From Microvelia longipes (taxonomy: Eukaryota; Arthropoda; Insecta; Hemiptera; Veliidae), in contig JACMZG010001908.1 of the NCBI GenBank assembly GCA_018340805.1, positions 38,815,689 through 38,879,688 on the forward strand: DNA of 64,000 bases. Direction: 5' to 3'. The notes under the pieces were generated by a model that worked only from the letters and a program-made list of their open reading frames with translations, ran no database searches and was not told the origin of the DNA. Shown piece after piece: positions 46,600-57,393 of this stretch. The position numbers and the translations under genes are program-made. Every line of letters starts with the position of its first letter. The first letter of the stretch is position 1.

Positions 46600-47172
46600 A
46601 CATTTCATTTTTGAAGAATCAGCTGCCTTTGATATATGCTACTGAAAATAGCAACTATAGAAGCTTCAATTGCTTCTTTAACTAGCGGTGAATATAACCT
46701 CTTTAATTTTACTTTTGAAGAATCAGTTGCAGTCGATACAATCTGCTCAACAACAGCAACTATCGACGGTTGCTGATTCTTCAATTGCTTTTTTACCTTG
46801 CGGTAAATATAACCTCTTTCACTTCATTTTTGAAGAATTAGCTGCAGTCGATACAATCTGTTCAATAACACCAACTATCGACTGTTGCTGATTCTTCAAT
46901 TGCTTCTTTAACTTGCGGTAAATATAACCTCTTTCATTTCATTTTTAAAGAATTAGCTGCAGTCGATACAATCTGCTCAATAACAGCAACTATCGATGGT
47001 TGCTGATTCTTCAATTGCTTCTTTAACTTGCGGTAAATATAACCTCTTTCACTTCATTTTTGAAGAATTAGCTGCAGTCGATACAATCTGCTCAACAACA
47101 GCAACTATCGATGGTTGCTAATTCTTTAATTGCTTCTTTATCTTGCGGTAAATATAACCTCTTTCATTTTTT
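46600..47172 (+). repeat. 115-bp satellite whose unit is a stem-loop
   Basis: ATAACCTCTTT anchors lie at 46694, 46809, 46924, 47039 and 47154, exactly 115 bp apart. A degraded partial unit lies before the first anchor. Within a unit, TGAAGAATCAGTTGCAGTCG (then ATA) is matched in inverted form by TATCGACGGTTGCTGATTCT (then TCA), with few mismatches. Each unit can therefore form a stem of about 23 bp with a loop of about 24 nt. The 67-codon frame at 46688-46891 is a by-product. Confidence 0.9.
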
Positions 47173-48404
47173 TTATTGGAACAAGAAAAATGTTTTTTAA
47201 GGTTATTTTTTATTTTTTTAACTTCTTTGCTTCAAGTTATTAGATATTAATATAATCATAACCACAATGCACGTTCAAGCTTTATACTTTGTAATTTGGC
47301 TTTTATGTATATAATTATAAGATAGTTGTGAAGTTTCTTAACATTTAATCCTTGTTTTTGTTGGTTTACCTAAGCAAGCCTTGTGTTTAAAAACTTTTGA
47401 CAAGTTAATTTCATATCACTACAGGTTGAACTTATTGTAAACAAAGGTATGTTTAATAATAAAAAAATATTATTAAAAATACCTGATATTAAAAACATAA
47501 TATTTTTGCTCCTTAATAATACATTACAAATTTAAAATTATTTCACTTAATTATTAATCATAATTAAGTTCAAATTTGATAGAAATAAATAATTACGTAT
47601 TTTTCTTTTTTAAGAAGCAAACCTCAAAATAATAAGCCCAAAATGATCAAACATTTTACCTCCTTACAATAATTTACTAGATACATTCTTTGCTACAAGA
47701 TTCAATAGCCATTTTATATCATGCATATCATGTATATCCATCATAACATGTTAATTTGATGAAAAAGAGCACCTGAAACTTAACCTTAACGGAATCTTGT
47801 TATTTTATTGAATTATACAATAATTTAATGATTATATAGGACAAGTTTCGACAAGCTGCTCATTATCGATGAATTTTTTAGTAGTTTTCAAATTCTTAAT
47901 ATGGTTTTGAATAAAGAAAACAAGTTGATTTTTCGATTAGTATCTTTTACAGAATGTTAAAAATAAGACTATGTCCTTTTAGTATGACTACATTCTTTAG
48001 TTTTAGTATTCTTTTTATTTGAACAAATAAATTTGTTTTGTATTTTTTTGTATTTTTCAACGAACTTACTTTTATTTAATTTATGAAATTTGTGATTTTC
48101 TGCTTATTTACATGTTTTATCGATAAACATATGTTATTCCTTTGAAGTTTTTTAAAAGAAGAATAAGGTGGTTAGAAGGCTACCCTGTGGCAACCCTTTT
48201 ATTATAGAATAATAAGATGTTTTTTGTGTTTTACTATGTTTGATATTTTGTGAAGCAATGTACTTATATGATAATTAGCTCCTTACATTTTGTTAGTGCT
48301 ACTTAAATAACAGCAACAATGAAGTCAAGTAAAATAACACCTTGATTTGTTGTAGATATAAAAATATAGTACTTACTCATTTATGTGAATTCAAAATAAC
48401 AAAC
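47173..48404. other. AT-rich spacer
   Basis: No supported feature. Confidence 0.55.
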
Positions 48405-48558
48405 AATCGGCTACGGGTACATCTGATTCACTACGCTCATCTTCCCTACTTCAGATTCGCTTCGCTCGTCCTTAGCTAAAAATACATCCGTTTCATTCTC
48501 AGCGGGAATATATATTCAAAATCTTGATATACTTGACGTATTGAAACGAAACTTAGAG

Positions 48559-48873
48559 TAATAAAAGAGGAAGAAGTCTCTCCACAAAAATATATTTCTT
48601 TTTATCAAAGCGCTTTCAACCTAACAAGAGGTCATCATCAGTGCTAGCCGTTGAATAAAGAAGAGGGTGATAGATGAGTCTTACAGATCAGATATCAAAG
48701 ATAGACTTAGGGACTTAGATTTAGGGTCTATCTTTGATATCTGATCTGTAAGACTCATCTATCACCCTCTTCTTTATTCAACGGCTAGCACTGATGATGA
48801 CCTCTTGTTAGGTTGAAAGCGCTTTGCTAAAAAGAAATATATTTTTGTGGAGAGACTTCTTCCTCTTTTATTA
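48559..48873. mobile_element. 315-bp foldback element inserted in family A
   Basis: The left arm 48559-48707 and right arm 48727-48873 are inverted copies with very few differences around a centre of about 19 nt. The whole is followed by about 32 bp (AGATGAACTCCATTAACGC...). A 12-bp duplication AAACTTAGAGTA flanks the insertion (48549-48560 and 48906-48917), both inside family A sequence. Each arm carries TGATGATGACCTCTTGTTAG then GTTGAAAGC, discussed as a hammerhead-like core. Inverted organisation plus such a core would fit a Penelope-like terminal remnant. No ORF is present. Confidence 0.8.
48786..48829 (+). ncRNA. Compact hammerhead-ribozyme-like motif
   Basis: In order on the plus strand: TAGCA (48786-48790); the invariant CTGATGA (48791-48797); GACCT-CTTGTT-AGGTT as a 5-bp stem II with one G-U and one unpaired T before it; the invariant GAAA (48815-48818); GCGC, which can close as one G-C pair on the A-U next to it; TT; and TGCTA (48825-48829), the exact complement of TAGCA, as stem I. 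The expected cleavage would be after T48824. Short stem III versions are known from Penelope-like elements. The minus-strand twin in the left arm reads TGATA, breaking one stem I pair. Activity is inferred, not shown. Confidence 0.45.
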
Positions 48874-49283
48874 AGATGAACTCCATTAACGCTCACCTTA
48901 GTTCTTAAACTTAGAGTACTTATTATAAAATAAGTACCCACTTACTTCATTAAAGTATACACTTGTACCGAATTTCAACTAAATTGGATTATTTTCCGAT
49001 TTTTTACAATTATTTAAAGTTAACTAATTTGATAAATATTAAACTGATTATGAAATTAAAATTAATACACTTGTTAGTTTTCATGCGTGCCTAATCTCAA
49101 AATGATCGCAATATTTTTCCGTGTTTTATAATTTTTCGAAATTCAGACTAGTTCATGACGCTATAAAATATTATTTTTCTGATAGTACAACTAGACCTAA
49201 TGATTGTTTTTTTTTATAAAGTTTCAACTCTCTAGCTTAAATATTTCACACTACCAGGCACACACACACACACACACACACAC

Positions 49284-56859: not shown

Positions 56860-57393
56860 GTGATAAAAAGTTTAAGGAAGGAGTATAGTATTATACTCCT
56901 TGCTCATCCTACAAAATCACATCCTAGGAAATCATGGAGAGAAATATTCAGGTCTAAGAGAATTTTAACGCTATATTCTCTATTTAGTTACCAGACACTT
57001 TTTATCTATGACACCCAACTAGATTATAATAAAATTAACAGCTTGCATAACTACCCGACTAAACAAAGCAATAAGTTACTTATCAGGAAGCCCAGACTCA
57101 CAAAGGCTGCTAGACTTAACATTACTCACTTAGGACTTATACTATATAATCACTTACCAGACTCCATAATTAGCTTAGATAAGAGGCCCTTCATAAATAA
57201 AATTAAAAGAATTCTGTTAGACAACCCATTGTATTCGGTAGAAGATTATTTTCAATTAATTTTTAATTATATTTGTTGTAAAATTATTGTTTCAACTGTA
57301 TGTTTGATTGCATTGACTGTTTGCAACTGTACAGAAATGTATGTTATGCAAATAAAGGTTTTATTTATTTATTTATTAGTTATACTATACTAA
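56860..57393 (+). pseudogene. 5'-truncated non-LTR retrotransposon, C-terminal end of ORF2
   Basis: The 177-codon frame carries the typical end of a LINE reverse-transcriptase polyprotein beyond the catalytic domain. It has HPRKSWREIFRSKRILTLYS, a Tyr/Phe-rich helix, then LHNYPTKQSNKLLIRKPRLT, the widespread 'LGLILYNHLPDSI' block and a Lys/Arg-rich end LDKRPFINKIKRILLDNPLY. This order (short REIF-R-ILTL segment, 'Y-TR-sN' segment, 'G-kLYN-LP' segment) is seen in jockey/CR1-type elements. No polymerase motifs, endonuclease or start remain, so the ATG at 56860 is fortuitous. A TGCAAATAAAG and (TTTA)n tail at 57352-57380 mark the 3' end. It is a dead copy whose interrupted 5' end is typical of incomplete reverse transcription. 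Confidence 0.8.

Follow-up and report, generated by a model that had tools for sequence, protein, structure and literature searches.

Short hammerhead-bearing palindromes in the genome of Microvelia longipes as probable leader insertions of a Penelope-like element

The near-perfect palindrome found in a 64,000-nucleotide stretch of the Microvelia longipes genome (hereafter the window; contig JACMZG010001908.1, positions 38,815,689 to 38,879,688) is probably an insertion made by a Penelope-like element (PLE) from the leader of its own mRNA, in which paired cDNAs were joined head to head. The insert is a PLE product and not a complete PLE: it has no open reading frame (ORF) at all, and hence none with RT and GIY-YIG domains, the matching ORF being located in partner PLE loci, and it presents a hammerhead leader (or pLTR), a one-sided tail in the range of 30-40 nt and a short target duplication.

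The palindrome at 48559-48873 was confirmed as it had first been described, with arms of 148 nt each (48559-48706 and 48726-48873), a single mismatch between them (48605 versus 48827) and a 19-nt centre. The preliminary description had also placed it as an insertion with a 12-bp target duplication in a copy of a repeat, family A, which has other copies inside the window; the duplication (AAACTTAGAGTA) and an insert-free site in another family A copy (49848-49721, minus strand) agree with this, whereas the extent has to be corrected, given that the position of the right duplication makes the insert run 33 nt further than the palindrome. The whole insert thus occupies 48561-48906 and consists of the palindrome and a 33-nt one-sided tail, flanked by the target duplications (Table 1). 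Elsewhere in the window, a tandem repeat with a period of 115 bp (46601-47238) and an open frame of 177 aa that has no Pfam match (56860-57393) were recorded.

Table 1. Features of the insert and its target site, in window coordinates
Feature	Position	Strand	Remarks
Left target duplication	48549..48560	.	Final TA doubles as the opening TA of the palindrome
Leader exon 2 in left antisense arm, 90 nt, tail absent	48559..48648	-	Outer end is the putative proximal reverse-transcription start
Leader exon 1 in left antisense arm, 58 nt	48649..48706	-	
Hammerhead motif in left arm	48603..48646	-	Stem I mismatch, TAGCA / TGATA
Centre, 19 nt, specific to the window copy	48707..48725	.	Putative joint between two cDNA ends
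Leader exon 1 in right sense arm	48726..48783	+	Matches the last codons, stop and next bases of the L099 PLE ORF
Leader exon 2 in right sense arm, as far as the proximal start site	48784..48873	+	
Hammerhead motif in right arm	48786..48829	+	Predicted cut 48824/48825
33-nt tail, right side only	48874..48906	+	PLE ORF start as read in L121; ATG 48876-48878
Right target duplication	48907..48918	.	

A foldback or MITE-type DNA transposon, with a hammerhead resemblance that arose by chance, would present the same long inverted repeats and target duplication, but its inverted repeats would touch both duplications, and here the tail stands between repeat and duplication on one side. In two samples of copies that both favour tails, this tail was found in the sense orientation in 73 of 74 copies and in the antisense orientation in none of the 74. 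Other evidence set out below also speaks against such a transposon, namely the retention of the hammerhead core across PLE families, the truncation of the arms independently of each other and, as a strong counter-argument, the derivation of the arm from a PLE leader by the loss of a GT-AG segment, and the probability left to this explanation is close to negligible. Rfam matches to miRNA precursors stayed below the gathering scores and were dismissed as a reflection of the near-perfect hairpin.

The core elements of a hammerhead ribozyme lie on the plus strand of the right arm, as had been claimed: TAGCA (48786-48790), CTGATGA (48791-48797) and TGCTA (48825-48829), together with a stem II formed by GACCT (48799-48803) and AGGTT (48810-48814) and followed by GAAA from 48815. 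The CUGANGA and GAA(A) core, with U16.1 and H17 before the cut, is therefore present in full (48791-48797, 48815-48818 and 48823-48824). Two traits had been overlooked, an unpaired U (48798) that separates A9 from stem II, and a stem III segment that is self-complementary, being AGCGCT (48818-48823) in the window and AGCCGGTT and AGCT in sister families. A hammerhead descriptor, designed after the motif had been seen, matched once in the 64-kb window; in 100 Markov-shuffled windows there were no matches with stems I and II of at least 5, and one with at least 4. The folding energy of the isolated motif was no better than that of shuffles (z 0.00-0.39).

A search of Rfam returned no hammerhead family for the window motif up to an E of 10, and no hammerhead in the PLE loci L099, L073, L074 and L071. 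The proposal of a hammerhead survives this result, given that a missing Rfam match is weak evidence when two viral motifs that pass as complete hammerheads (L007 and L003) are missed as well. These came from a scan of viral contigs (IMG/VR) for the core string CTGATGATGACCT-N4-8-AGGTNGAAA, which produced seven loci (L001-L007, with L001 and L006 alike), all of which qualify as complete hammerheads of type I or III by the test applied here and have an extra U after A9. A second pattern gave a single match (L008), which is no hammerhead by the same test.

The covariation of the stems that had been looked for was found, within few independent types, in five leader types of the genome, in which the core is constant (N7 apart) and stems I-III differ with pairing largely kept: stem I is paired at 5/5 in four types and at 4/5 in one, stem II is complete, and self-complementarity of the stem III segment is total in four types and 6/8 in one. 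In 40 copies of the palindrome, the hammerhead was intact, by the criteria used here, in 33 right arms and 33 left arms, and in both arms of 27 copies, with a divergence in the core of 2.1% (right) and 1.1% (left) versus 2.2% and 2.9% in the rest of the arm; among copies this young, and with no clear excess of conservation in the core, conservation says little on selection. The comparison of sequences thus supports the window motif as a minimal-stem-III hammerhead of the PLE kind, and its stem III may permit cutting as a dimer or the pairing of RNAs.

Position 42 of exon 2, where the cut is predicted, is not the start of any truncated arm in the tail-selected sample, which suggests that the templates were uncut, in agreement with work on a lizard PLE in which cutting was unnecessary for insertion (PMC11167929). 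The ATG formed at A9-U-G was considered as an ORF start, by comparison with the nearby position in the lizard element, and rejected on account of an in-frame stop (TAG in the window, TGA in L084). In the sister families L078 and L084, none of which was seen spliced, stem I seems to include the AG that ends the assumed intron, so that splicing could alter the ribozyme.

The source of the arms is to be found among the PLEs of the same genome, where 63 GIY-YIG domain matches were obtained among 150 scored of 843 candidates. Hammerheads with the window layout are carried by six of nine large GIY-YIG loci (L077, L078, L079, L080, L082 and L084), with other stem sequences and with leaders that are direct, inverted or both; in a looser set, in which some loci overlap, a hammerhead was present in 11 of 29. 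One of these loci, L082 (G000:C558:38798000-38807500), is a sister-family PLE fragment with direct and inverted hammerhead leaders about 15 kb to the left of the window. Next to a GIY-YIG domain, a 49-bp fragment (L070/L076) was set aside as a separate truncated insertion on the opposite strand.

The window-type leader itself follows an interrupted frame that ends in ...VSLSLISDL-stop in locus L099, which is among the first 30 loci with an exact tail. This locus was placed as a PLE because its frame shares 46% identity, in an alignment of 156 residues, with the GIY-YIG region of the protein P0001 of the PLE L084, the frame alone having no Pfam match at E 0.01. P0001 has a GIY-YIG match above the curated cut-off and an RVT_1 match below it, and a protein search with the L084 frame returned 38 proteins with identities of up to 46%, including two from the moth Leguminivora glycinivorella.

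A segment of 183 nt separates CAACG from GCTAGC in L099; it opens with GT and closes with AG, the latter preceded by a T-rich stretch, and the leader without this segment matches the consensus arm of the palindrome family, and the right arm of the window, at 180 of 181 positions. Across the genome, 613 exact spliced junctions and 135 unspliced ones were counted, with none for the reversed-pattern controls. Three haplotypes, defined by four sites of exon 2, occur both with and without the intron, which suggests that the intron was lost repeatedly, as by splicing, and not through one deletion. The tail, for its part, reads in L121, a fuller copy, into an ORF that begins MNSINAHLSS..., and the subsequent residues share 51% identity, over 70 residues, with the beginning of the L084 ORF, so that the tail corresponds to the first codons of the ORF. 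The leader is thus laid out as a 58-nt exon 1 that includes the end of the upstream ORF, an exon 2 with the hammerhead, and then the first ORF codons.

The beginning of exon 1, like the splicing, was deduced from DNA, and may represent the 5' end of the RNA. Of the 32 spliced arms in the tail-selected loci, 26 have their ends no more than 5 nt from where exon 1 begins and none goes beyond that point, and all five unspliced arms that reach it continue past it. All six intron-bearing copies examined have TCAGTC at the exon 1 start, which fits an arthropod-type initiator, and AGTCTATC would be the place at which the capped PLE mRNA begins. In L084 and L077, a TCAGTCTA stretch follows the ORF stop about 164 bases upstream of the hammerheads (7006 and 7742), an arrangement shared with the family studied here, and no TCAGT occurs within 420 bases upstream of the hammerhead in L078 and L071.

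A derivation of the palindrome from a PLE of the host genome is supported by these comparisons, and the Penelope origin suggested in the preliminary description is upheld, since PLE loci of the genome carry the window leader or related leaders with an equal hammerhead layout. The accompanying idea, that the palindrome is an inverted terminal remnant of a larger element, fits less well than a pair of spliced mRNA-leader cDNAs, which is apparently formed anew with every insertion and of which the genome has hundreds of copies.

These relatives, for which the preliminary description had recommended a search, were sought in 665 Mb (1470 contigs) and comprise 343 exact matches to the tail, with none for the reversed-pattern control, besides the 613 exon junctions. 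A first sample goes back to 2413 first-look candidates; the 40 that were scored gave 80 matches, being 40 loci on both strands. This sample consists of 39 other loci and the window copy, ranked by a query with 17 of the 33 tail bases. A second sample contains 36 loci (L085-L120) chosen by the exact tail regardless of the left arm, two of which (L094 and L101) it shares with the first sample, leaving 34 new ones; tailless or two-tailed insertions may be under-sampled in both. Nearly all of the 40 copies of the first sample have precise outer ends and a tail that ends in CTTAGTTCTT, the target duplication is 12 bp long in 19 of 40, with letters that are 75% A+T, and a majority consensus of the copies is its own reverse complement at 306 of 306 positions. 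In another PLE family, two copies inspected by eye have one tail each, on the inverted arm in L084 and on the direct arm in L077.

The centre is unique in all 39 parsed copies of the 40 (L052 was unparsed), with 3-34 nt between the arm anchors, often part-copied from the arms; the palindrome would therefore be remade at every insertion. This is difficult to reconcile with a self-propagating non-autonomous family, in which an intron-less palindrome would have arisen once and spread through its own transcription, and would have passed on its centre. The high copy number and the excess of spliced over unspliced junctions would be expected from such a family, and the three haplotypes found in both intron states, as well as the arm allele variants that also occur in intron-bearing copies, would not, which makes it very improbable. 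In a variant of the same idea, an internal promoter in exon 1 might conceivably re-use single arms.

The comparison of the two arms bears on how they were made. Within 460 bases upstream of the tail, the 36 tail-selected loci have both arms spliced in 10 cases, a spliced left arm with a right arm truncated in exon 2 in five, the reverse (left truncated, right spliced) in three, both truncated in four, both unspliced in two, no left arm in nine and other arrangements in three; within 700 bases, antisense pieces are present in 29 of the 36. The left arm has leader sequence missing from the right arm in six loci (L085, L086, L092, L096, L108 and L112) and the right arm is longer in five (L100, L106, L110, L111 and L113), a count that leaves out L105 and L114, which look like internal right-arm deletions. 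Later deletions could mimic some of the unequal arms.

The orientation of the arms is nearly constant, given that 17 of 18 close spliced pairs, from the first 100 of 613 places, are head to head, the single other pair being between two adjoining palindromes, as are 17 of 18 close unspliced pairs from the first 100 of 135 places. Two spliced palindromes adjoining in tandem were noted at G000:C510:56478440-56478776. At arm position 105, which has two alleles, 25 of 58 copies are T/T, 24 are A/A and nine are mixed, against an average of about 0.3 A/T discordances at each of the remaining sites (48 over 143), which suggests that some insertions had two template RNAs. Close junction pairs, on the other hand, were spliced with spliced in 18 cases, unspliced with unspliced in four and mixed in none, in the stretch common to both lists, and together with the 49 of 58 copies that agree at position 105 this restricts two different templates to a minority at most. 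The two templates would usually have come from one pool, or one RNA would have been copied twice.

An alternative that was adopted as the first model is snap-back, in which the 3' end of a single leader cDNA folds back and primes the copying of itself into a second arm. It would yield a head-to-head palindrome with nearly equal arms, a loop-like centre and the agreement of most copies at position 105, and for the PLEs of Adineta a self-priming reaction with an antisense template has been put forward (PMC3846280). It was dropped after the tail-selected sample revealed unequal arms, because leader sequence present only in the left arm of six copies would demand later deletions restricted to the right arm; the nine mixed copies are a second difficulty, and the exact end of the second arm at the proximal start is left unexplained. 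Given this, snap-back is considered quite unlikely.

Two cDNAs made separately from the leader RNA and then joined, the explanation preferred here, would be generated as follows. The PLE protein would nick both strands of the target approximately 12 bp apart, and both nicked ends would prime reverse transcription within the leader RNA of the PLE. Each arm would have its own start site, a distal one just inside the ORF and a proximal one 33 nt upstream. In retroviral strong-stop DNA, synthesis ends at the 5' end of the RNA, and the cDNAs may likewise be extended to the capped 5' end or fall off early, after which their 3' ends would be connected, in many cases through filler derived from the arms, to give a head-to-head palindrome and a target duplication. 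As the start region would lie only near the 5' end of ordinary mRNA, leader-only insertions would be the common product, and full-length insertions would require a tandem, unspliced read-through RNA.

In vitro, the purified PLE protein of a lizard cuts and extends both strands, and the tail of the lizard PLE is the segment between two reverse-transcription start sites, although the start site did not differ between the strands in that study (PMC11167929). An unlikely extension of the preferred explanation is that PLE integration is obligately paired, with a dimeric RNP that carries two leader RNAs, both strands primed, one cDNA per fixed start site and the template RNAs paired via the self-complementary stem III of the hammerhead. 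If this were the case, the conserved hammerhead would be a pairing device as well as a cutter.

No report of leader-only spliced PLE palindromes was found in the open-access library searched, and PMC11167929 and PMC3846280 regard PLE integration, the occasional inversion of the terminal repeats and the one-sided position of a 30-40-nt tail as unsettled matters. The many natural insertion joints described here point to a spliced sense RNA as the template, to two start sites used one per arm, and to a head-to-head joint between two cDNAs whose lengths are independent, which would amount to a strong-stop-like product in a class of retroelements outside the LTR and LINE elements. This would explain short palindromes with a hammerhead that could be mistaken for MITEs, and so compact a substrate makes the mechanism of PLE insertion testable.

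Among known systems, twin priming of LINE-1 is a process in which both target strands prime reverse transcription and inverted segments of one RNA result. The palindromes of M. longipes differ from its products in that both cDNAs would copy one and the same leader, with a palindrome as the outcome. Animal retrozymes, as described in PMC7229834, where PLEs are suggested as their machinery, are likewise small non-coding retroelement copies with type I hammerheads; the copies studied here depart from them in their derivation from a PLE leader and in the absence of direct tandem repeats, the arms being inverted head to head.

The minimal hammerheads of PLEs described in PMC6155905 and PMC7229834 share with the window motif the type I layout and the very short stem III, and the palindromic stem III segment reported there for salamander hammerheads (PMC7229834) is a trait that the window motif also has. 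The latter differs from them by the unpaired U after A9 and by a G-U pair at the base of stem II.

Finally, the closest likeness is to PLEs of the Penelope/Poseidon type, with inverted pLTRs and an optional tail (PMC11167929 and PMC3846280), with which the insertions have in common the inverted head-to-head leaders, the one-sided tail of 30-40 nt, the short and variable target duplications, the hammerhead in the leader, the AT-rich targets and the presence of GIY-YIG partner elements in the genome. They differ in the lack of an ORF between the arms, in arms that both consist of spliced leader and nothing else, and in hundreds of copies. For Adineta, the 2013 study (PMC3846280) attributed head-to-head joints to self-priming on an antisense template, with a link to the retention of introns in PLEs, and left the matter open, whereas the joints of M. 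longipes would reflect two independent cDNAs of sense RNA.
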